DNA from: Endomicrobium sp.
GTDB taxonomy: Bacteria > Elusimicrobiota > Endomicrobiia > Endomicrobiales > Endomicrobiaceae
DNA length: 64,000 nucleotides
Direction: 5' to 3'
NCBI GenBank assembly: GCA_031260705.1
Contig: JAISLA010000001.1
Span: 124,001 to 188,000 of the forward strand
A model generated the notes under the pieces. The model did no database searches. It was not told the origin of the DNA and was given only the letters and a program-made list of their open reading frames with translations. Positions 193 to 54,059 of this stretch are shown here, piece after piece. Position 1 is the stretch's first letter, and the number at the start of each line of letters is the position of its first letter. Both the position numbers and the translations under genes were made by a program.

Positions 193-1644
193 ATGCATAA
201 CAATAATCAGGAAATAGATTTAAAAACAGAGGTTTTGGAAAGGATTATAAGAGCATTCTTTTCTCATGATTTTAAAGAAAGAGCGCGGCTTATACCGTTT
301 GATATGCGCCCGAAAGGCGCTGAAGTTTTGTACAGGTGTTGTATATATAAAGAGCGCGCTATCCTTAAGGACCGCGTTATAGCGGGACTGGGTTTTGCAA
401 TAGAAGATGACTGTGAAACGGTTGACTTGTCAAAATATGCAGAAAGATCTCTTGAGCGCAGGAAACCTGAGGAAAATCCCCTCACGATCGTTAAGGCTGC
501 CTGTAAAGGTTGCGTTCCTAATAGAATTTGTGTAACGAACTTATGTCAGGGATGTGTGGCAAATCTTTGTCGGAAGGTATGTAAGTTTGATGCAATATCC
601 ATAATCGGCGGAAAATCGGTAATTGACAGCAATAAATGTAAGAACTGCAAAATGTGTATAGAGGCTTGTCCGTATAATGCTGTAGTGAAAATAGCCGTTC
701 CCTGTGAGGATTCTTGTCCGGTTGACGCAATTAAAAAAAATGTAAACAGCACCGCGCAGATAGATTACAAAACCTGTATATATTGCGGTAAGTGTATTAT
801 GAGTTGTCCGTTTGGCGCTGTTCACGAAAAAAGTCAGATAATTGACATTTTAAAAAATATAGTTTCCTGTAAAAAAGTTATTGCTTTGATAGCACCTTCA
901 ATTGTCGGACAGTTTTCTGGAAACGTTTATCAGTTGAAATCCGCTATAATAAAAGCAGGCTTTTCAGATGTGTATGAGGTTGCGCAGGGAGCGGACACAG
1001 CCGCAATAAATGAAGCAGAAGAATTTGAAAAAAGAATGAAATCTGCCGGATCTATTATGACAACTTCCTGCTGCGCGAGTTATAATCAGTTTATAAAAAA
1101 ACATCTGCCCGAAATAAGAACGTTTGTGTCGGATACTGAAACGCCTCTTTACTATATTGCTGGGAAAGTGAAGGCTAAACATAAGGATGCTCTGACTGTT
1201 TTTATAGGTCCCTGTATTGCAAAAAAGAACGAGGTGAAGGAAAACAGCAATGTTGATTATGTAATAAATTACAAGGAACTTGCGGCGTTATTTAACGCAA
1301 AAGATATTAAAGTTCAGGATTGCAAAGAAGAAAAATTTGATATTGAAAGTTCAAGACAGGGACGCGGTTTTTGTATTACAGGTGGGGTTGTGGCTGCCGT
1401 ATCAAAAGTTCTTGAAACAAAGGATTTAGTAAAGCCGCATGTAATCAACGGTTTGAACAAAGAAACAATCAGACAGTTGAAAAAAATTGTTAAGGATCAA
1501 AAATGTGCAGAAGGAAATCTGATTGAGGTGATGTGCTGCGAAGGAGGCTGCATCGGCGGCAATGCAACAGTCTGCATGCCAAAAGTTTCCATAAAAGCGG
1601 TAAAAGCTTTATCGGAACAAAGTAAAGATATAACTGAAAAATAA
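193..1644 (+). CDS. Monomeric [FeFe] hydrogenase-like iron-sulfur protein
   Basis: This 483-residue protein has an N-terminal part of about 95 residues, a Cys-rich 4Fe-4S region (about residues 95-220, with two ferredoxin-type CxxCxxCxxxCP motifs near 150 and 197) and a C-terminal hydrogenase H-cluster domain. The three H-cluster motifs are visible: TSCCAS (about 290), GPCIAKKNE (about 339) and EVMCCEGGCIGG (about 445). The known role of the family is reversible proton reduction or H2 sensing with ferredoxin. TSCCAS in place of TSCCP and the diverged third motif suggest a group-B-like rather than a classical group-A enzyme; this is inference. Only a weak ribosome site (GAAG) precedes the ATG. 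A hairpin follows the stop codon, and the next gene is a pseudogene, so it is probably monocistronic. No HydE/F/G maturases lie in the window. Confidence 0.85.
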   Translation: MHNNNQEIDLKTEVLERIIRAFFSHDFKERARLIPFDMRPKGAEVLYRCCIYKERAILKDRVIAGLGFAIEDDCETVDLSKYAERSLERRKPEENPLTIVKAACKGCVPNRICVTNLCQGCVANLCRKVCKFDAISIIGGKSVIDSNKCKNCKMCIEACPYNAVVKIAVPCEDSCPVDAIKKNVNSTAQIDYKTCIYCGKCIMSCPFGAVHEKSQIIDILKNIVSCKKVIALIAPSIVGQFSGNVYQLKSAIIKAGFSDVYEVAQGADTAAINEAEEFEKRMKSAGSIMTTSCCASYNQFIKKHLPEIRTFVSDTETPLYYIAGKVKAKHKDALTVFIGPCIAKKNEVKENSNVDYVINYKELAALFNAKDIKVQDCKEEKFDIESSRQGRGFCITGGVVAAVSKVLETKDLVKPHVINGLNKETIRQLKKIVKDQKCAEGNLIEVMCCEGGCIGGNATVCMPKVSIKAVKALSEQSKDITEK

Positions 1645-1667: not shown

Positions 1668-1753
1668 ATTTCGTTAACAAAACTTATGACTGATTGTTAA
1701 CCTTGCAGAAATTGGTATGTTATAAGCAGTTATTCGGGAGGGGGGGGTAGATA

Positions 1754-2687
1754 TTGAGAGTTTTAGTTACGGGCGCAAACGGTTTTGTCGGGAGACATAT
1801 TGTTGAAACATTGCTTGAGGCAAAACACAGTGTTATATGTGCCGTAAGAAAAACGTCAAATTTAAGATGGGTAGAAAATTTATCTGTAGAATACAAATAC
1901 GGCGATTTAAACGATAAAAAATTTTCTGAGACAGCCGTTAAAGACGTTGACGCTGTTGTCCACTGTGCTGGCATTGTGCGCGCTATGAGCATGAATGAAT
2001 ACTTTAAAGCAAACGCTGAAAACACTAAAAATCTGTGCGAGGCGGTTCTAAAAGTAAGTCCGTGACTAAAAAAGTTTATATTTATTTCTTCGCAGGTGGC
2101 TATGGGTCCGTCGGTTGCCGGTGGTGTTAAAAAAGTTACGGATAAAAATAATCCCGTTTCGGATTACGGGTTAAGCAAGCTGTCGGCGGAATCAGAGGTT
2201 AAAAAAATTCTTTGCGGAAAAGTTCCATATACAATTTTAAGCCCTGCCGCTGTTTACGGTCCGAGAGATAAAGATATTTTTTAATTTGGTATATAAACAT
2301 TTGAGACTTGCATCAATGACAAAAAGATTTTTACAGCTTATCTACGTAAAAGATGTTGCAAATGCTGTAACATCATGTCTGGAAAATAAAAAAACCGATA
2401 ATAATACTTATTATCTTGCAAACTCTGCTGTATGTACATGGTCTGAAAATAGGCAGAATTATATCCTCTTCTGCCGGCGTAAAGACAATTCTCTGCCTGT
2501 TGCGGATTTTGTTTTTAAATTTGCGGCAATGGCGGCGGGATCTTTATCCTATATAACAAAGAAGCCTGCGGTGTTAAACAGACAGAAAATTGTTGAAATG
2601 CTTTAGCAATATTGGACCGCCGATGCCGAACCTGCCGAAAACGATTTAAATATTGAGTTTACCTCGCTTGAGTTGCTTCTGAAATAA
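1754..2687 (+). pseudogene. Broken NAD-dependent epimerase/dehydratase (CerR-like)
   Basis: Translation gives an extended SDR/epimerase: GANGFVGRHI Rossmann motif at the start, VVHCAGIVRA, then YGLSKLSAE carrying the YxxxK catalytic pair, VYGPRDKD and, in another frame, RFLQLIYVKDVANAV. The reading frame is destroyed by an in-frame TGA at 2063-2065, a frameshift in a T-run near 2281, at least two further shifts between about 2445 and 2510, and a TAG at 2604-2606 before the last residues, which continue to 2687. A strong Shine-Dalgarno (GGGAGG) precedes the start. The intact protein would be about 310 residues. It sits ahead of remnants of an AONS-family synthase and a GNAT acyltransferase, an arrangement that recalls the ceramide reductase of bacterial sphingolipid loci. 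Confidence 0.85.
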
Positions 2688-2699
2688 CATATAATTGGT

Positions 2700-3110
2700 A
2701 TTTGAGCAATAAATTTTTCTAAACTATACTATTTTAAAGAACACCGATATTTTGAAAAATGTTTTAGGTTTTATGCCGCAAAAAAGTTAGGAAAAATAGG
2801 TTTCTATTCATATTTTTACATACTGTCGGGTATCATTCAATTTTGGAATCTCTTTCAAATCCGGCGTGCAAAAATGAAGTTTTGATTACAGACAAATTAT
2901 ATAATACATTTGATTGTTAGCTGTTGCTTATATTTTGAAAGAATAACAGAATAACAATGACATAGCGAACCTTAAACAGAAATATTACGAAAAAAACATA
3001 TTGCTTGTAATTAGCGGCATTTTTATATGGAAAACGGCTTTGTAAATTTCCCGTAAGTTTCAAGATTTGTAAAAAAGACGGAACGCAATCTGTCGGAGCA
3101 TAATAATTTA
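2700..3110 (+). pseudogene. Remnant of a serine-palmitoyltransferase-like PLP synthase
   Basis: No open frame survives, but pieces in different frames follow the order of the alpha-oxoamine synthase family. From about 2775 one frame reads KLGKIGFYSYFYILSG, like the FYPYFR stretch near the start of serine palmitoyltransferases. Near 2880 another reads VLITDKLYNT, like the ITDKLNHAS motif. Near 2955-3060 come NNDIANLK, LLVISGIF and MENGFVNFP, like HNDxxxLE and VVDGVFSMEGD. The PLP-lysine half is absent, so a large deletion has occurred. The assignment rests on my reading of short motifs across frames. The SPT subfamily is favoured over BioF/KBL by the GFYSYF segment and the two neighbours. Confidence 0.5.
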
Positions 3111-3146
3111 ATTGTATCGGAAATTATACGGCTGTATTAAAATAAA

Positions 3147-3973
3147 ATGAAGATAATTAAAGCAGATACCCGAGAGCAATTCAAGCGGTTTGTACGATTC
3201 CCTTGGAAAATTTATTCAAAAAATAGTCCGTAGGTGCCGGCTCTGATTTCAGATGCCGAAGGAATACTTTCAGAAAATAAAAATCCTTTCTGGATGCACG
3301 CAAAAAAGCAGCTTTTTTAGCTTACAATGATAGTGGCAATGTCATCGGCAGAATCGCGGCGATAATAGATTACAATCATATAACTTTTCAAGACGATAAG
3401 TGCGGATTTTTGTCGGAGGGATTTGATATACCGCCTAGTCTTATGATGGTTTATACTCCGCAATATTATCTGCGTCTTGTTGAATACGGTCTTAAAAAAG
3501 TAAAATAACTTTACGCTTATGATATGGATGTCAGCGAAGATTCAAGAGTTGGCAGGCTTGAAAGAATTGTTGTCGCGGCAAAAAAGAAACTTCCGACGTT
3601 AAAAATAAGAACTATGCAGGAAAGTTCGTTTGAAAAAGATTTAAAGTCTGTAAAATCAATATATAACCGCGCATGGGAAAAAAACTGGGGTTTTGTGCCT
3701 TGGAGCGATGAAGAATTTGTCGATCTTGCCTCGAAGTTAAAAATACTTATAATTCCGCAGATGGCAATAATAGCGGAAGTGTCGGGTTCGCCTGTAGGAA
3801 TGCTTATATCTGTGCCGGATTACAATTATGTATTGAAAAAACTTAACGGCAGACTTTTTCCGTTCGGAGTTTTTAAATTTTTATATCACAGAAAGAAAAT
3901 AGATAGTTTAAAGCTGATGATTATGGGCGTTATAAAAGAATGTAGACATAAGGGTATTGGATCCGGGAAGTAA
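3147..3973 (+). pseudogene. Broken GNAT-type acyltransferase (YghO / bacterial ceramide synthase-like)
   Basis: The start at 3147 gives MKIIKADTREQFKRFVRFPW, typical of the YghO-like GNAT family. A nonsense codon follows where a Trp is expected (about 3209, SP-stop-VPAL for DPYWVPPL), then a frameshift in a T-run near 3315 (LAYNDSGNVIGRIAAI continues in another frame), an internal deletion around 3405-3430 and a further stop near 3506. The longest surviving piece, 3524-3973, contains YNRAWEKNWGFVPW and reaches GIGS, where the acyl-CoA-binding region is cut off just ahead of smc. This family includes the proposed bacterial ceramide synthase; that link is inferred from family and neighbours. 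Confidence 0.75.
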
Positions 3974-4021
3974 AAATTTTGATTGATAACAGCGATAAGA
4001 AACCTGCGGAGAAATAATATA

Positions 4022-7000
4022 ATGTACTTAAAGAAAGTGGAAGTATGCGGTTTTAAATCGTTTGCCGACAGGACAGTATTGGATTTTGAACCTGGCATTT
4101 CTGGCATTGTGGGTCCTAACGGCTGTGGCAAATCTAATATATCGGATTCCATACGCTGGTGTCTCGGAGAGCAGAAAGCAAAATCAATGAGAAGCTCTAA
4201 TATGCAGGAAGTAATATTTGGCGGCACACAGACAAGAACTACTACCGGAATGGCCGAAGTTTCTCTTACTTTTGACAACTCGCAGAATGTTTTGCCTGTA
4301 GATTATTCCGAAGTTACCATAACAAGGCGATTATTCAGAAGCGGGGAAAGCGAATATTTTATAAACAAAATCCAGTGCAGACTTAAAGATATAAGAGATA
4401 TGTTTTTGGATACCGGCATAGGCTATGACGGTTATTCAATTATCGAGCAGGGAAAAGTTGACTTTCTGACTACTGCAAAACCTGAAGACAGAAGAGAGCT
4501 GTTTGAAGAAGCTGCCGGAATAGCAAAGTATAAAGTGAGAAGAGAAGAAACTTTAAGAAAACTTGAAAAAATCGACACTGATATGTCCCGTCTGTCAGAT
4601 GCTCTTGTTATTCATAAACGGCAGATAGCGGCTTTGAACTCTGCAGCAAAAAAGGCAAAACAGTATAAAGAGTACAGAGAAAATCTTGCAAAATATGAAA
4701 TTGTCTCTTTAGTGCGGCGCATAACCAGCGGCATCGGCGAAATAGAAAGAATCAAAAAAGCTTTGGACCCTAAAATAAAGGAATTTGAATCAGACAATGT
4801 CTTTATAGTGCAGCTTGATGCGGAAATTCAGGAAATGCGTCTTGTCTTAGACGGCAGAAATGAACAGTATGTGAATATAAACAGAGATTTAAGCGAAATA
4901 AAAACGCAAATAGGTGTTGCCGACCAGATGATACAGCATGCTATGGGGCGCGAAATCGAGATAAAAGCCGAGCAGGAGAGACTTGAGTGTGAGCTTGCGA
5001 CAAACCGCGATAAAGTTGCTCAAATGGAAAAACAGCTTAAAACTTTAAATGCCGACGACGACTCTTTGTCTGCTGAAGCTGTTCGTCTTGAAAACGTTTT
5101 CAAAGAAAAAGAACTGCAGTATAATTCGATAAAAGCCGGACTTTTGGAGTTTGAATCAAAAGAAAACGAAGTTCGTTCAAAGATTTCAAAGCTTAAGTCG
5201 GAAAAAGAGCAGCAGCTTAAATTAAAAACAGAGCTTGCGGAAATAAAAACACGTCTTGATACGGATACCATTTCTTTGGAGAGAATGATAACAATGCTTG
5301 AAAATGATGTTGAACCCGCAAATCGGGAAATTGCAGAGATTGAAGCTGAACTTGCCGACGCAGACAAGTCGCGGCATTTATTTGAATCCGAAAAAGAAAA
5401 AATAAATAAAACTGTTTCGGAAAATGAAGAGAAAATAAAAACTCTGGAAAACAGTTTGTCGCAGTGCAAAGAAACTCTTGCTTCATGTGAAGCCCGCATA
5501 GCTACTTTAAAGGAGTTTGATCAGCAGGATCCCGTAAGATCGTCTATAAGAGCGGTGCTGAGTTTGGGAAATGTTGCAAGAGGTCCCATAAGCAGTTTAA
5601 TTGATGCTGATGACGATAAAATCGGACTTATAGCGTCGGCTTTAGGCGAAAAATTAAATTACCTTGTTTGTGAAACTTCAGAAAGAGCCGAACGGGCTGT
5701 TGAATTTTTGGAAGACAATGGTTTGAGCAGGCTTTCTTTTATAGTTGCTGAGAAGATTTCCGATTCTTATAGGAAGTCCGATGTAGGACTTCCTCTGGGA
5801 TATGCTGAACTTATAAAATATTTTAGATATAATCCGGCAGATGAAAAAATAATCCGCTTTTTATGTTCCGATACTCTTGTCTGCGGGAATAAAATTTACG
5901 GGAATGTCATAGTTCAAGGCGGTGGAAAGATGTCTTTTGAGAAACCGGTGTTGATTGAAGAGCAGATAAAAAAACTTCAGAAAAAATCTGATGAAATCAG
6001 GCAGACTATTTCTTCCGTGCAGTCTGAAATAGAGCAAATGAGAGAATATCAGATAAATTCCCGTCTTGAAAAAGAGAGATTAGGTTTTGATACGATAAAA
6101 ATAAAAACGCAGATCGAGGAAAAACATTCCCGGATTGAAGAGAAAAAAAACGGATTAAAAAGTATTGTCAGGGAAATAAACAGACACAAAGAAGAAATAA
6201 ATTCTAAAAAAACGGAACTTGCGTCTTTTAGCGGGAAAATATCTGTTTTTGAAACAAAACTCGCAGATTATGAAAATGAAGAGAATAAGCTTTACGAAGA
6301 ATTAAAAATTTCTGACAACGGCATATTTTCGACGAGAAAAGAAGAAGAACTTATTGCTCCCCTTATGATGAGTGCTAGAAGCAGTTGGGATAAAAAAGCT
6401 GCTGAATTGGAAAATATGCGTAAAGGGCAGCAGTATATTCTTGACAATATTTCCAACATTAAGCAGCAGATAGTGTATGCTGAAAACAGAATCAGGGAAA
6501 ATAGTAAGAAACTTTCAGAATTGCTTGCTTTGCAGGAAGCGGAGACAGTAAAAATGCAGCAGTTATACGAGCGGCAGGCGCAGAAAGAAGCCGAAATAAG
6601 GATTTCTTTGACGGATAAGCAGACACTGCAGGACGCTCTAGACGCAAAAATAAAAGAATGGCGCGGTTTATGCGGTAAAGTTGATGGTTTAAACAACGAA
6701 ATAAACAATATGCAGTCCGATATAAAGAATTTTGAATATCAGAAAAATGATTTGGAAAAAAGACTTGCCGAAGCGTACGGTAAAAACTATGAAGATATTA
6801 AAAACGATTTTGATGGTGTTGATGAAGTAAACAGCGAAGAAATTACGGAAATAAAGAGAAAAATGGAATTTTTAGGCGCCGTAAATCTTGCTGCGCAGGA
6901 AGAATACGACGCTTTAGAAAAAAAATATAATTTCCTTTTAATGCAGCAGCAGGATTTGCTGAAAGCTAAAGACGATTTGTATGAAGTTATAAAAAAAATT

Positions 7001-7489
7001 AATAGTGCTACCGTAGAAAACTTTAAGGTGACTTTTGACATTGTAAAGGGAAATTTTAAAGGGATTTATAGAAAACTTTTCGGCGGCGGAGAAGCGGATT
7101 TAATGCTTACTGATGAAAATGATTTGCTTGGAAGCGGTGTTGACATCTATGCTCAGCCTCCCGGAAAGAAATTGCAGAACATCTCGCTTTGCTCCGGCGG
7201 CGAGAAAGCTTTAACTGCCGTAGCTCTGCTTTTTGCTTTTTTTGTCGCTAAGCCTTCGCCTTTTTGTATTTTAGACGAAGTTGACGCTCCATTAGACGAT
7301 GCAAACGTAGGCAGATATAACGCTATGGTTAAAGAGTTTGCCGCAAAAACGCAGTTTTTGATTGTAACTCATAATAGACGCACGATGGAGATGGCGGATA
7401 TTCTTTACGGCGTTACAATGGAAGAACACGGTATTTCAAAAATAATATCTGTAAAAATGAATAAACAAAACGATACAGTTGCGCAGTGA
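4022..7489 (+). CDS. smc: Chromosome segregation ATPase SMC
   Basis: This 1155-residue protein organises and segregates the chromosome as a DNA-bound condensin dimer. The N-terminal head has Walker A GPNGCGKSN (about 30-38). Two long coiled coils flank a hinge at roughly residues 500-660 (ISSLIDADDDKIGLIASALG and following). The C-terminal head carries the ABC signature LCSGGEKAL (about 1055) and Walker B FCILDEVDAPLDD (about 1081). The ATG at 4022 is preferred over an in-frame ATG at 3983: it starts at the conserved MYLKKVEVCGFKSF and has GGAG upstream, whereas the earlier start lies in the decayed acyltransferase tail. Length and motifs are complete, so the gene looks intact beside ruined neighbours. 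ScpA/ScpB are not in the window. Confidence 0.97.
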   Translation: MYLKKVEVCGFKSFADRTVLDFEPGISGIVGPNGCGKSNISDSIRWCLGEQKAKSMRSSNMQEVIFGGTQTRTTTGMAEVSLTFDNSQNVLPVDYSEVTITRRLFRSGESEYFINKIQCRLKDIRDMFLDTGIGYDGYSIIEQGKVDFLTTAKPEDRRELFEEAAGIAKYKVRREETLRKLEKIDTDMSRLSDALVIHKRQIAALNSAAKKAKQYKEYRENLAKYEIVSLVRRITSGIGEIERIKKALDPKIKEFESDNVFIVQLDAEIQEMRLVLDGRNEQYVNINRDLSEIKTQIGVADQMIQHAMGREIEIKAEQERLECELATNRDKVAQMEKQLKTLNADDDSLSAEAVRLENVFKEKELQYNSIKAGLLEFESKENEVRSKISKLKSEKEQQLKLKTELAEIKTRLDTDTISLERMITMLENDVEPANREIAEIEAELADADKSRHLFESEKEKINKTVSENEEKIKTLENSLSQCKETLASCEARIATLKEFDQQDPVRSSIRAVLSLGNVARGPISSLIDADDDKIGLIASALGEKLNYLVCETSERAERAVEFLEDNGLSRLSFIVAEKISDSYRKSDVGLPLGYAELIKYFRYNPADEKIIRFLCSDTLVCGNKIYGNVIVQGGGKMSFEKPVLIEEQIKKLQKKSDEIRQTISSVQSEIEQMREYQINSRLEKERLGFDTIKIKTQIEEKHSRIEEKKNGLKSIVREINRHKEEINSKKTELASFSGKISVFETKLADYENEENKLYEELKISDNGIFSTRKEEELIAPLMMSARSSWDKKAAELENMRKGQQYILDNISNIKQQIVYAENRIRENSKKLSELLALQEAETVKMQQLYERQAQKEAEIRISLTDKQTLQDALDAKIKEWRGLCGKVDGLNNEINNMQSDIKNFEYQKNDLEKRLAEAYGKNYEDIKNDFDGVDEVNSEEITEIKRKMEFLGAVNLAAQEEYDALEKKYNFLLMQQQDLLKAKDDLYEVIKKINSATVENFKVTFDIVKGNFKGIYRKLFGGGEADLMLTDENDLLGSGVDIYAQPPGKKLQNISLCSGGEKALTAVALLFAFFVAKPSPFCILDEVDAPLDDANVGRYNAMVKEFAAKTQFLIVTHNRRTMEMADILYGVTMEEHGISKIISVKMNKQNDTVAQ

Positions 7490-10677: not shown

Positions 10678-11094
10678 ATGAAATATCTGAAAAAAATTAT
10701 AAAACTTATTTGTAGATATTTGCATGAGCGCTGGGTTAAGGCTCGTTTTCAAACATATAAATCGTTTAACCACCACCACCATCACTATCTTTATGGATAC
10801 TGGCGTGAGCGCTGGGTTAAGGCTCGTTTTCAAAAGTATAAATCGTTTAACGACTGTCTTAAATATAATGGTATGGCTAAATTAAGCGACGCTGCCCCCG
10901 GTGTTTATAGATTTGTTGCGGCTTATTGCGATGGAAAATTGGTTCACAGGCTTCTTGAAATGGGTTTTGTTCCGGGCGAATATTTAACTGTTATTGAAAA
11001 CACTGGTCCAAAAGGCAGCATAATGATTAAAATAAAAGATTCAAAAATTGCTTTAAGCAATAAAATTGCCGATAAAATTTTATTGAGGAAATAA
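10678..11094 (+). CDS. feoA: FeoA-domain protein with a duplicated, His-rich N-terminal extension
   Basis: The C-terminal about 73 residues (from MAKLSDAAPG, residue 66) form a normal SH3-like FeoA domain (YRFVAAYCDGKLVHRLLEMGFVPGEYLTVIE), the cytoplasmic partner of FeoB. Ahead of it is an unusual 65-residue extension: two copies of ERWVKARFQxYKSFN (about 17-31 and 44-58) separated by HHHHHYLYGYW. At DNA level the copies are 46-bp near-identical repeats with an 81-bp period, in frame. GAGG lies before the ATG at 10678, while the internal ATG (10873) has only a weak site, so translation from the long start is favoured. The extension is not a FeoA feature I know. feoB begins 3 nt after the stop. 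Confidence 0.8.
   Translation: MKYLKKIIKLICRYLHERWVKARFQTYKSFNHHHHHYLYGYWRERWVKARFQKYKSFNDCLKYNGMAKLSDAAPGVYRFVAAYCDGKLVHRLLEMGFVPGEYLTVIENTGPKGSIMIKIKDSKIALSNKIADKILLRK
10725..10770 (+). repeat. 46-bp direct repeat, copy 1 (inside feoA)
   Basis: This copy begins TGAGCGCTGGGTTAAGGCTC and ends AAATCGTTTAAC. It is almost identical to the copy at 10806-10851, differing only at two bases around the ACA/AAG codon. Spacing is 81 bp, a multiple of three. Confidence 0.9.
10806..10851 (+). repeat. 46-bp direct repeat, copy 2 (inside feoA)
   Basis: Second copy of the in-frame repeat, coding for ERWVKARFQKYKSFN. It lies 14 codons after a CAC/CAT run that codes five His. Confidence 0.9.
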
Positions 11095-16766: not shown

Positions 16767-19172
16767 ATGAATAAACAAAAATTTTTAGATATTTTAAAAA
16801 GCCGCGTATTAATAATGGATGGAGCTACGGGAACTGAACTGCAGAAAAAGAAGTATCTTGACGGCGTTGAAATTCCGGAAGAAATTAATATTAAATTTCC
16901 GGAAAGAATAGCGGATATTTATTCTTCTTATATAAATGCAGGTTCTGATATAGTTCTTGCAAATACGTTCGGTGCAAGTCCCATAAGATTAGAACAGCAC
17001 GGACTTTTGGACAAAGCTGACGACATAATAAAATCAGGAATTGATTTGATAAGGGAAATTTCTTCCGATACAATTGTTGCGGGTGATATTTCGTCAATAG
17101 GAGAGTATATCGAACCGCTCGGCTCTTTAACTTTTGATGAAGCTTATAACGCTTTTACATTTCAGGCGTCTTTGCTGCAAAAACACGGCGCAGATGTCAT
17201 AGTTATTGAAACAATGACCGAGATAAAAGAAACTAAAGCGGCAATTCTTGCGGCAAGAGAAAATTTTGACGGAGCGATTATTGTTCAAATGACTTTTTCA
17301 AAAGATGGAATCACGGTTACGGGAACTGATCTGAAAAGTTTTATTGCAATGGCGGAAAGTTTAGGCGTTGATGCACTGGGATTAAACTGTTCTATAGGCT
17401 CTCAAGATTTAGCAGAACTTGCAAAGGTTCTTTGCGCCAACACGAATCTGCCTATATCTTTTAAACCTAATGCGGGAATTCCTGTGTTAATTAACCGTGA
17501 GACCTGCTTTCCGGAAACAAAAGAAGAATTTATTGAAGCAAGCTTAAAAGCGTATTCTTACGGTGTTAATATGTTCGGCGGTTGCTGTGGAACGAATCCT
17601 GAATTTATAAAGATTCTGTCTGGAGAACTGAAAAATAAAGCGCCGAAAATACGCGGTGTAAAAAGCAAATATTTCCTTTCAACAAGAACAAAAACCATCG
17701 ATATAAATGAGGCTAAAAAGCCTGTTATGATCGGCGAAAGAATAAACCCGACGAACAGAAAAAAGCTTCAGGATGAGCTGCTTAAAGGCAATTTGTCAAT
17801 TGTAAAAGACGAGGCTCGCTCACAGGTTGGGTCCGGTGCAAATCTTCTAGACGTAAATATGGGAATTCCGGGAACAGACGAAGTAAAGCTTCTTATAAAT
17901 GCTGTAAACCAGATACAGGAGACGGTTTCTGTTCCTTTATGCATAGATTCAAGTAATCCCGGCGCTTTAGAACAGGCTGTTAAAAACTGTGCCGGCAGAC
18001 CTGTCATAAATTCCGTAAACGGCGAGCAGGCAAAGCTTGACGTAATATTGCCTATTGCAAAACGCTACGGCGCGGCGCTTATCGCATTGACGACAGATGA
18101 TAACGGAATACCTGCAACGGCAGCGGATAGATTAAAAATAGCTGCAAAGATTTTAAATTCTGCTGATCGCTGCGGACTTGAAAGAAAAAATATTGTTTTT
18201 GATTATCTTGTCCTTTCTGCAAGTTCTTCACCCGATCAGATAGGGGAAACGTTAAAAGCAATGAGGGAATCAAAGAGAATATACCCCGAATGCAAACTTG
18301 TTTTAGGTGTGTCAAATGTTTCTTTCGGACTTCCTTCAAGACAGACAATCAATTCAACTTTCTTAAAAATGGCTGTAGATGCAGGACTTGATTTTGCAAT
18401 TGCCAATCCCCACGAAAATTGGGATATAGATGACCCTTTTGCCAAAAATTTACTTGAAAATAAAGATAAGGGAGCGGTTAAATACATGGAGATTTTTGCC
18501 TCCTTTAAAAAGCAAATACCGGAAACCGAGACAGAAAAACTTACTGCAGATAAACGACTTTATTTTGCGGTTTTAAACGGGAACCGGGAATCTATAGATG
18601 ATATTTTAAATCAGATTATTGCTTCCGGCGACAGCAGTCCTTTTCGGACAGTAAACGATAATGTTTTGAAAGCGTTAAATGTTGTCGGTGAAAAATTTGC
18701 CTCAAAAGAATATTTTTTACCGCAGATAATTATGTCTGCTCAAGCCGCTCAGGCGGCTTTTGCTATAGTAAAGGCTACTCTGAAAAAAGACGAAACGTCT
18801 TCTGCCGGCAAAATTATAATGGCTACGGTTAAAGGCGATATGCATGACATAGGTAAAAATATAGTCGGTGCCGTGCTTGAAAGCTATGGTTTTGACGTCA
18901 TAGATATGGGTATAAACGTCGATTCTCAGGCGATAATAGATGAAGCCTATAAGATTAATCCGATTGCAATAGGACTTTCCGCTCTTATGACGACCACAAT
19001 GCCTGAAATGGAAATGGTTGTAAGATTAAAAAATGCGGCTCGTGTTCCCGCAAAAATCATTATAGGTGGCGCGGCAGTTACAGAAAAGTTTGCGAAAGAG
19101 ATCGGTGCAGACGCTTATGCCAGAGACGCTATGGAAGCTGCCGGATATATGAAAACTTTGCAAAAAAATTAG
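16767..19172 (+). CDS. metH: Cobalamin-dependent methionine synthase (no activation domain)
   Basis: This 801-residue protein transfers a methyl group from methyl-tetrahydrofolate via B12 to homocysteine. Domains: homocysteine-binding barrel (about 1-290) with zinc Cys in GLNCSIG and GGCCGTNP; pterin-binding domain (about 305-570, VMIGERINPTNRKKL and DVNMGIPG); B12 cap and Rossmann domain (about 590-801) with the cobalamin-ligating GDMHDIGKNIVG (DxHxxG). The C-terminal SAM-binding activation domain of E. coli MetH (about 1227 residues) is missing but is supplied by the gene upstream. AAGGA precedes the ATG. Confidence 0.95.
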   Translation: MNKQKFLDILKSRVLIMDGATGTELQKKKYLDGVEIPEEINIKFPERIADIYSSYINAGSDIVLANTFGASPIRLEQHGLLDKADDIIKSGIDLIREISSDTIVAGDISSIGEYIEPLGSLTFDEAYNAFTFQASLLQKHGADVIVIETMTEIKETKAAILAARENFDGAIIVQMTFSKDGITVTGTDLKSFIAMAESLGVDALGLNCSIGSQDLAELAKVLCANTNLPISFKPNAGIPVLINRETCFPETKEEFIEASLKAYSYGVNMFGGCCGTNPEFIKILSGELKNKAPKIRGVKSKYFLSTRTKTIDINEAKKPVMIGERINPTNRKKLQDELLKGNLSIVKDEARSQVGSGANLLDVNMGIPGTDEVKLLINAVNQIQETVSVPLCIDSSNPGALEQAVKNCAGRPVINSVNGEQAKLDVILPIAKRYGAALIALTTDDNGIPATAADRLKIAAKILNSADRCGLERKNIVFDYLVLSASSSPDQIGETLKAMRESKRIYPECKLVLGVSNVSFGLPSRQTINSTFLKMAVDAGLDFAIANPHENWDIDDPFAKNLLENKDKGAVKYMEIFASFKKQIPETETEKLTADKRLYFAVLNGNRESIDDILNQIIASGDSSPFRTVNDNVLKALNVVGEKFASKEYFLPQIIMSAQAAQAAFAIVKATLKKDETSSAGKIIMATVKGDMHDIGKNIVGAVLESYGFDVIDMGINVDSQAIIDEAYKINPIAIGLSALMTTTMPEMEMVVRLKNAARVPAKIIIGGAAVTEKFAKEIGADAYARDAMEAAGYMKTLQKN

Positions 19173-51509: not shown

Positions 51510-52670
51510 ATGCTTGACGACTTTTTATTGAAAAAATTATCAGAAACGGAAAATGCCGGTTTACTAAGAACGTTAAATACGATACAATCAAATCCAGCGG
51601 CAAGGATCGAAATAAACGGAAGAAAATTCATAAATTTTTCATCAAATAATTATTTGGATCTTGCTGGAAATAAAGAAATAAATAAAGCAGTTGCGGACGC
51701 TGTAGAAAAATACGGATTTGCAGGCACATCTTCGCGTTTAGTTTGCGGCAATCTTTCAATCCACGAAGAACTGGAATCTGAACTTGCCGTCTTTAAAAAT
51801 AAAGAGACTTCTCTTGTTTTCCCGAGCGGTTATCAGACTAATGTCGGTATTATAAGTGCGTTGATGGCAAACGAGAAAAATTCGTGCATAATAATGGACA
51901 AACTGAACCACGCTTCGCTTTGGGATGGGGTAAAACTTTCAGGCAGCAGAATTTTTGTCTATGAACACTGCGATATGAACTCGCTTGAAAAAACGCTTAA
52001 GCGAGCGCATAAACATGAAATTAAATTAACGATAACTGAATCAGTCTTTTCTATGGACGGAGATTTTGCGCCTTTAAAAGATTTTGCCGAATTATGTCTA
52101 AAATATGGTGCCGTAAGCATGGTTGATGAAGCGCATTCGACAGGTGTTTTTGGAAAAGAAGGAAAAGGACTTGCCGAAGTTTTCGGCGTTTCAAACAAAA
52201 TAGATATAACCGTCGGTACGCTTTCAAAAGCTTTTGCCGCGCAGGGCGGTTTTGTCTGCGGTTCCCGTCAGCTTATCAATTTTTTAATCAATAAAAGCAG
52301 AGCTTTCATATACACAACGGCAATTTCTCCAGCAGTATGCGCCGCCGCTTTAAAATCTCTGGAAATCTTAAAAAGAAGCGCCGCTGAAAGAGCATTTTTA
52401 CTTAAAACAGCAGAATATTTAAAAAAGAAATTAAACAAACTCGGTTTTAATACTTTAAATACGCAGTCGCAAATAATACCAGTTGTAACCGGAAGCGTTG
52501 AAAAAACCGAAAGAATATCGTTATATCTTCGAGAGAAAGGAATTTATATTCCGGCGATAAAACCGCCTACTGTTCCTAAAGAACAATCAAGGATAAGAAT
52601 TTCGCTTACGGCGGGACATACTGCCCGGGATATTGAAAAACTGACAGATTCGATTTCAGAGATTGTCTAA
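51510..52670 (+). CDS. bioF: 8-amino-7-oxononanoate synthase
   Basis: This 386-residue PLP enzyme condenses pimeloyl thioester and alanine in biotin synthesis. Motifs: FINFSSNNYLDLAGNKEI, GFAGTSSRLVCGNLSIHEELE, VFPSGYQTNVGII, IIMDKLNHASLWDG, ITESVFSMDGDFAPL, SMVDEAHSTGVFGKEGKG and the PLP-lysine TLSKAFAAQGGFVCG. It could also be a related AONS enzyme, but the convergent bioA-bioD supports BioF. Its 3' end overlaps bioA by 15 nt on opposite strands. Confidence 0.92.
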   Translation: MLDDFLLKKLSETENAGLLRTLNTIQSNPAARIEINGRKFINFSSNNYLDLAGNKEINKAVADAVEKYGFAGTSSRLVCGNLSIHEELESELAVFKNKETSLVFPSGYQTNVGIISALMANEKNSCIIMDKLNHASLWDGVKLSGSRIFVYEHCDMNSLEKTLKRAHKHEIKLTITESVFSMDGDFAPLKDFAELCLKYGAVSMVDEAHSTGVFGKEGKGLAEVFGVSNKIDITVGTLSKAFAAQGGFVCGSRQLINFLINKSRAFIYTTAISPAVCAAALKSLEILKRSAAERAFLLKTAEYLKKKLNKLGFNTLNTQSQIIPVVTGSVEKTERISLYLREKGIYIPAIKPPTVPKEQSRIRISLTAGHTARDIEKLTDSISEIV

Positions 52671-54059
52671 TTCGATTTTAATTGCGCTTATTATTTTTGA
52701 TGTTTCCCGATTTGTCATTGTGAGATGTAAAAATAGAACAAGTGTATTGTTGAGATTTCTGATTATAATCCCGTGTTTTCTTAAATTCGCACAAATTTTT
52801 GCACCTATTTTAAGTTTAGAGTCGTAAGGTTTTCCTGTTTTTTTGTCTTCAACAATTTCTATGCCCGCCATTACTCCGCAATGCCTGATATTTCCGACTC
52901 TGTTATGCTCTAGCAATGATGCGAGTTCTTTTTCTAAGTGTTTGATTTTAGATTGCAGCTTCTGTAAAATTTTATTTTGTTTTAGCGTATCAAGAACCGC
53001 ATTTGCAGCAGCGCATGCAAGCGGATTTGCCGTATAAGAATGTCCGTGAAAAAAAGTTTTAAATTCTTCATATTTTCCTAAGAAAGCACTATAAATTTCA
53101 TTTGTGGTAGCAGTAATAGCCAGAGGCATATATCCGCCTGTTATGCCTTTTGACAGACATATAAAATCGGGTTTAACATCCTCATGCTCTACTGCAAACA
53201 TTTTTCCGGTTCTTCCAAATCCCGTAGCGATTTCGTCGCAGATTAAAGGTATTCCGTACTGCTTGCAAAGATTTGCGTATTCTTTAAGATAACCTTTGGG
53301 CATTATTATCATACCTGACGCTGCCTGATTCAGAGGCTCGATGACAGCAGCAGCAATTTTTTTATTATTTTCGGCAAGAATTGACTCAACCTCTTTTATG
53401 CACTGTCCCCTACAGTTCATCTGCATATTGTGATCTTTAAAATTTTCTGCAGTTGCGGGAAACTTTATTTCCTTTTTTCTGTAAACGCATCTATAGCAGT
53501 AAGGCGACATTGCAAAATAACTTTTAAAGAGCAAAGATCTAAACCTTAAATGGAACAAATCTGTGCCGCCTACTGAAACAGCGCCTATAGTGTCTCCATG
53601 GTAGGCGTTTTTTAAAGACAGAAAAAAGCTTCGTTTTTCATTTTTAAACTGCCAGTACTGATAAGCCATTTTTAACGCAACTTCTACGGCGGTAGAACCG
53701 TCATCAGAATAAAAAATTTTTTTTAAATTATCAGGCAGTATTTTTAAGAGTTTTTCGGATAAATCTATCGCGGGTTTGTGCGTAAGTCCAAGAAAAGTTG
53801 TATGTGAAACTTTATCAATCTGTTTTTTTACTGCTTTGTCTATTCTGGGATTTCTGTGACCTAAAAGAGTTACCCACAGAGAAGATACTCCGTCGAGATA
53901 CTTTTTCCCATCAACGTCATACAAATATGAACCTTTCGCTCTGTCTATTATTAAAGGTTTGCACGGATCGTCATTCAGCCAGTCCGCCATTTGCGTAAAA
54001 GGATGCCAAATATTGTTTTTATCTGAGTTTGTCAATGCCATCTTTATTTTATTATCCAT
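52656..54059 (-). CDS. bioA: Adenosylmethionine-8-amino-7-oxononanoate aminotransferase
   Basis: This 467-residue class III aminotransferase converts KAPA to DAPA with SAM as amino donor. Motifs: IWHPFTQMADW (the BioA substrate signature), LDGVSSLWVTLLGHRNP, FYSDDGSTAVEVALKMAYQYW, NAYHGDTIGAVSVGG, LICDEIATGFGRTGKMFA, CLSKGITGGYMPLA (PLP Lys) and FFHGHSYTANPLACAAA. An insertion with several Cys (YCYRCVYRKKE to CRGQC, about 180-225) is seen in some BioA forms. Overlaps bioD by 16 nt. Confidence 0.94.
   Translation of the reverse strand: MDNKIKMALTNSDKNNIWHPFTQMADWLNDDPCKPLIIDRAKGSYLYDVDGKKYLDGVSSLWVTLLGHRNPRIDKAVKKQIDKVSHTTFLGLTHKPAIDLSEKLLKILPDNLKKIFYSDDGSTAVEVALKMAYQYWQFKNEKRSFFLSLKNAYHGDTIGAVSVGGTDLFHLRFRSLLFKSYFAMSPYCYRCVYRKKEIKFPATAENFKDHNMQMNCRGQCIKEVESILAENNKKIAAAVIEPLNQAASGMIIMPKGYLKEYANLCKQYGIPLICDEIATGFGRTGKMFAVEHEDVKPDFICLSKGITGGYMPLAITATTNEIYSAFLGKYEEFKTFFHGHSYTANPLACAAANAVLDTLKQNKILQKLQSKIKHLEKELASLLEHNRVGNIRHCGVMAGIEIVEDKKTGKPYDSKLKIGAKICANLRKHGIIIRNLNNTLVLFLHLTMTNRETSKIISAIKIELDNL

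Follow-up and report, generated by a model that had tools for sequence, protein, structure and literature searches.

Remains of a probable ceramide operon, with the serine palmitoyltransferase gene lost first, in an Endomicrobium genome

The window, the whole 64,000-nucleotide stretch analysed here (contig JAISLA010000001.1, positions 124,001 to 188,000), comes from a 990-kb, metagenome-like Endomicrobium assembly of 17 contigs that is about 81% complete (hereafter G000). Its nearest genomes belong to the genus Endomicrobiellum, e.g. Ca. E. devescovinae, E. cubanum, E. calonymphae and E. mastotermitis, the genus of all flagellate endosymbionts characterised so far (PMC11257099). On the plus strand, at positions 1751-3973, three pseudogenes lie head to tail: a CerR-like epimerase, a serine palmitoyltransferase (SPT) and a tandem GNAT of the YghO/bCerS type. 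Three adjacent dead genes had been described at 1754-3973 in the initial annotation, and these limits are correct to within a few bases. The genes on both sides are open:

193 to 1644, plus strand: monomeric group B1 [FeFe] hydrogenase, intact, upstream of the operon and outside it (TIGR04105, 492.6 bits, cut-off 450)
1751 to 2722, plus strand: pseudogene of an extended-SDR 'epimerase' (CerR-like ceramide reductase), from Pfam, frame-tolerant alignment and intact orthologues
2723 to 3146, plus strand: remnant of an SPT gene, from frame-tolerant alignment and comparison with the close relative G069
3147 to 3973, plus strand: pseudogene of a YghO/bCerS-type tandem GNAT N-acyltransferase, from frame-tolerant alignment and the intact G069 copy
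3983 to 7489, plus strand: SMC chromosome segregation ATPase, intact downstream neighbour given for context, from its open reading frame and its conserved position in relatives

The hydrogenase gene, intact in the window, is broken into short frames in G069 (L273), so that neighbouring genes have met opposite fates in the two genomes. Elsewhere in the window, a 65-bp direct repeat (10709-10854, 88% identical, spacing 81) falls within open frame 10678-11094 and adds a repeated peptide near its N-terminus. At 16767-19172, a MetH-like protein of 801 residues matches positions 2-850 of a 1182-position methionine synthase model and lacks the C-terminal part.

Lesions were mapped with position-specific protein models from intact relatives, which were aligned to the DNA with frameshifts allowed; all three of the families named at the outset were recovered. 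Residues 1-326 of the 326-residue epimerase aligned over 1751-2719, 77% identical to a consensus drawn from intact relatives, and two of its pieces matched the Pfam Epimerase family (8.7e-18 and 3.9e-07). This gene carries stops at 2063 (TGA) and 2604 (TAG), frameshifts near 2276, 2448, 2491 and 2673 and a two-codon deletion, and its start codon has been replaced by another codon, with a TTG at 1754. The SPT remnant keeps residues 6-27 (2751-2816) and 108-200 (about 2816-3077) of 395; residues 28-107 and 201-395 are gone, i.e. about 275 codons are deleted and about 30% of the gene is left. Its start codon is lost, and the piece covering residues 108-200 contains three frameshifts and a TAA stop at 3054. 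The remnant scored 128, compared with 32 ± 4 for dinucleotide shuffles (none of 100 as high) and 26 for the model on the reverse strand, while the N-terminal piece scored 95 compared with 24 ± 4 (none of 300 shuffles as high). In the GNAT pseudogene, residues 1-318 of 370 aligned over 3147-3958 with 79% identity; stops occur at 3231 (TAG) and 3506 (TAA), a frameshift near 3312, 46 codons (138 bp) are deleted at 3401 and the last 52 codons are missing. Both GNAT deletions were confirmed by comparison with the intact G069 copy. At the 138-bp deletion, the two flanking G069 matches overlap by 13 bp (3399-3411), a mark of deletion between short direct repeats. Thus, all three genes are broken, and the intact reading frames of a functional ceramide operon are absent from the window.

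Single lesions in the window were read from the assembly, and some of the frameshifts lie in or near homopolymers of this metagenome-like assembly. That the genes are alive and only look broken through faults of sequencing or assembly is nevertheless very improbable: the stops arose by substitution, the deletions are large, the flanking genes are intact and the SPT lesions are common to the independent genome G069.

Intact copies in free-living Elusimicrobiota, a search proposed in the initial annotation, were found; they include the cultured isolate Endomicrobium proavitum, which carries an intact epimerase-SPT-GNAT row on a single contig of 1,588,979 bp, the length of its published chromosome (PMC4505116). 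Among 60 relatives searched, the GNAT was found in 49 and the SPT in 47, the latter count including distant paralogues. The epimerase search also picked up other sugar epimerases; among the genomes examined, the best epimerase match adjoined SPT and GNAT in every assembled locus, except in G055 and G058. The order epimerase-SPT-GNAT on one strand was conserved in all 31 genomes where it was measurable, with gaps mostly below 110 bp and SMC usually next downstream. Nearly all relatives have intact copies in this order, among them most of the congeneric flagellate endosymbionts, and intact pairs gave dN/dS values of 0.07-0.26 by simple pairwise counts. Across the phylum, an SPT-like gene was detected at E ≤ 1e-100 in 250 of 295 Elusimicrobiota genomes, about 207 of them at E ≤ 1e-158, and the about 43 weaker hits may be KBL-like. 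GNAT relatives occur in many phyla, where 41 of 80 have both SPT-like and epimerase genes within 6 kb, an association that is thus general and of long standing.

In relatives, GNAT and SMC are often separated by a fourth, short gene of about 120-160 codons (L063 1303-1776, L085 5684-6046, L270 and others). Two copies only gave a weak Y_Y_Y match; the gene is absent from the window and eroded in the relative G025. As to SMC itself, several small-genome endosymbionts (G007, G001 and G028, at L070, L071 and L074, respectively) have an N-terminal region that has diverged strongly and is broken up among frames, which suggests that SMC has been lost there.

The raw fragments of the middle gene had no Pfam match, and its identity was resolved only through the orthologues of relatives. 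The best NCBIfam model for the intact relatives was that of SPT, NF047600, at 504.5 bits, below its equivalog cut-off of 640 bits. In the PDB, the best match was the Sphingobacterium SPT (402 bits), with KBL and BioF enzymes at 296 bits or less. The pyridoxal phosphate (PLP) lysine and the active-site His, Asp, His and Arg are conserved in the intact Elusimicrobiota copies (H137, D208, H211, K242 and R365, by comparison with 3A2B and 8GUH; invariant in A2). In a maximum-likelihood tree drawn without ALAS, CqsA or cysteate enzymes, the middle gene joined characterised SPTs with support of 100/99, to the exclusion of KBL and BioF. G000 has a BioF gene of its own at another place, and this gene is intact (51510-52670, 439 bits, cut-off 426). 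Despite the lack of a Pfam match to the remnant alone, there is next to no chance that it is a BioF, a KBL or nothing at all and that the three genes are unrelated, since its score was 134 with the SPT of a relative and 38 with G000's own BioF, none of 100 shuffles scored as high, and relatives have an intact SPT at exactly the same place. A BioF or KBL assignment, the outcome that would have overturned the original SPT call, was therefore rejected on the tree and the remnant scores, and that call holds. The middle gene is a serine palmitoyltransferase, for which condensation of serine with long-chain acyl-CoA is predicted, the amino acid substrate not being readable from sequence. The BioF gene converges with an intact BioA gene (51510-54059), and biotin synthesis genes have been kept in the window.

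The GNAT was 32.6% identical to E. coli YghO over 99% of its length and 33.6% identical to a Sphingomonas homologue over 96%; the genes for both lie a few kb from spt, acp and cerR (SDR) genes. In this and the epimerase comparison below, homologues from E. coli and Sphingomonas served as stand-ins for Caulobacter CC_1154 and CC_1164. The yghO gene has been named a homologue of that for CC_1154, an N-acyltransferase needed for dihydroceramide in Caulobacter (PMC9386255). An AlphaFold2 model of the GNAT (pLDDT 88) showed a tandem GNAT fold, with tandem GNATs as the best PDB matches (TM 0.6-0.7). The epimerase was only 29% identical to the SDR of the E. coli cluster and 24% identical to that of the Sphingomonas cluster, nearly over its full length, which counts somewhat against the assignment; when the CerR homologue of the E. 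coli cluster was searched against 11 genomes, however, the operon epimerase came first in every one. CerR reduces oxidised ceramide and is periplasmic in Caulobacter. The full-length YghO match and the 11 best hits bear out the families first proposed for both genes: the GNAT belongs with the bCerS type represented by YghO and CC_1154, with a predicted role in sphingoid-base acylation, and the epimerase belongs with the CerR-type SDRs, predicted to act in ceramide reduction.

The same three enzyme families make up the ceramide pathway of Caulobacter (Spt CC_1162, CerR CC_1164 and bCerS CC_1154). In contrast to Caulobacter, Elusimicrobiota group the three genes in a single short operon, without aasR or acpR adjoining, and use an SPT of the Bacteroidota type, and in the window the three genes are dead. 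The yghO/spt-acp-epimerase-acyl ligase cluster of E. coli (plasmid NZ_MG591698.1) holds full-length homologues of all three genes, but, unlike the Elusimicrobiota operon, it is accompanied by genes for an acyl carrier protein of its own and a fatty acyl-AMP ligase and by LptFG-like genes, and its SPT belongs to the other SPT subgroup. The closest solved SPT is that of Sphingobacterium multivorum (PDB 3A2B and 8GUH), a member of the NF047600 family with which the PLP lysine and active-site residues are common; as noted, the Elusimicrobiota SPT stays below the cut-off of that family (504 versus 640 bits).

The order of loss was read from two close relatives, both 99% complete. As rpoB is absent from G000, ValS was used as species marker, and in its tree G025 was sister to G000 with support of 100/100; G069 was left out of this tree, its closeness to G000 resting on 90-93% identity. 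Apart from its use as a marker, valyl-tRNA synthetase is present in two full-length copies in G018, and in-frame stops occur in G026 (one) and G030 (three). G069, whose SMC is 90% identical to that of the window, has an intact epimerase and GNAT, with about 240 bp left at the SPT site. G000 and G069 share the large SPT 3' deletion and the stop at 3054, which places the death of SPT before their split. In G025, SPT is heavily eroded (dN 0.33 to G026, compared with 0.06-0.11 for intact pairs over the same codons), and the epimerase and GNAT are again intact. None of the epimerase and GNAT lesions of the window was found in G069 or G025. Since the SPT lesions are shared and those of the other two genes are private to G000, SPT died first. 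The SPT start codon is lost in both G000 and G025 through different bases, so that one SPT loss preceding the divergence of G025 is likely but not proven. These two genomes had also been suspected of having a frameshift in common at SPT codon 183, which DNA alignment did not uphold.

Once SPT had gone, the other two genes remained constrained. Epimerase and GNAT gave dN/dS values of 0.15-0.17 between G069 and G025 by simple pairwise counts, with no stops in either genome. The window and G069 are separated by a dS of 0.12-0.16. In a neutral simulation with an assumed mutation model, 5.4 stops were expected in the two genes at as little as about 0.05 substitutions per site, and the probability of none was 0.002; G069 has none, indicating that CerR and bCerS were kept by selection without SPT. 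The decay of CerR and bCerS is confined to the window's lineage and is recent.

The picture in the initial annotation, of a pathway discarded perhaps after the move into a host cell, is therefore too simple. Loss was stepwise, SPT being dead while G069 and G025 keep the other two intact. Removal of the whole pathway at once upon entry into a host is not supported, because most endosymbionts keep intact operons under purifying selection; life inside flagellates alone thus does not make the pathway dispensable. In a separate lineage, G010, G013 and G033 (90-95% complete) are without all three genes. Their contigs (L268, L267 and L269) end beside SMC in mobile-element-like sequence, with traces resembling the fourth gene upstream of SMC. 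The debris at this position also resembles what we take to be an IS1-type transposase.

The above findings suggested that the pseudogenes are, very probably, the remains of a cerR-spt-bcerS ceramide operon inherited vertically in Elusimicrobiota, of which SPT was lost first; to this extent the lost ceramide-type operon first proposed is supported, in its three families and in their identity. SPT, of the Bacteroidota type and with no dedicated acyl carrier protein gene adjoining, would catalyse the condensation of serine and a fatty acyl thioester, bCerS would add an amide-linked acyl chain and CerR would reduce the 3-keto group, giving (dihydro)ceramide. Elusimicrobiota carrying the operon would, we infer, make sphingolipids.

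The persistence of two genes without the third could also be explained if CerR and bCerS, and hence the operon, served a role outside sphingolipids, such as N-acylation of another amine. The epimerase and GNAT of G069 and G025, intact and constrained without SPT, fit this explanation, as does the generic tandem GNAT fold, whose best structural matches are sugar and thiol acetyltransferases. Two facts speak against it and leave it unlikely: across phyla the genes are linked to SPT, and the GNAT is homologous to the YghO/CC_1154 type. Somewhat less probable still is an operon with the same gene set and a head other than serine, making another long-chain amino lipid: a sulfonolipid (from cysteate), a 1-deoxyceramide (from alanine) or some other N-acylated amino ketone. 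SPT, cysteate acyltransferase and their relatives form one superfamily, a cysteate C-acyltransferase was among the PDB hits of the middle gene (247 bits) and this gene falls under the SPT equivalog cut-off, but the Sphingobacterium SPT scored far higher and the tree groups the gene with SPTs, though cysteate enzymes are not in it.

The SPT gene thus died first, in the ancestor of the window's endosymbiont and its close relatives. CerR and bCerS then stayed long under purifying selection without SPT, presumably acting on host- or gut-derived sphingoid bases, the supply of which by the flagellate host is assumed here. In the window's genome alone, CerR and bCerS decayed afterwards, and recently. 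In the simplest biochemical reading, the symbionts would have turned from synthesis of sphingoid bases to their acquisition, with acylation and reduction continuing until the window's lineage gave these up too. It is conceivable, at somewhat less than even chances, that the intracellular symbiont clade kept such a 'headless' ceramide pathway, of which the window would show the final collapse.

In the open-access papers searched, we found no link between Elusimicrobiota and sphingolipids and nothing on the sphingolipids of parabasalids. Progressive gene loss has been described in the same genus by Mies et al. 2024 (PMC11257099), the main text of which makes no mention of sphingolipids or ceramide; to this, the present analysis adds one pathway, together with the order in which its genes were lost. 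The series from intact operon to loss of SPT to loss of all three genes gives stages in the dismantling of a lipid pathway inside a eukaryotic cell, which may itself make the same lipids. Salvage of sphingoid bases by bacteria has been raised as a possibility for Caulobacter, without proof, and the stage at which SPT is dead while CerR and bCerS remain constrained bears on that question (PMC11324152). If true, the 'headless' pathway would be a bacterial route of sphingolipid salvage. The operon makes Elusimicrobiota a candidate sphingolipid-producing phylum that can be tested, with one cultured free-living endomicrobium.
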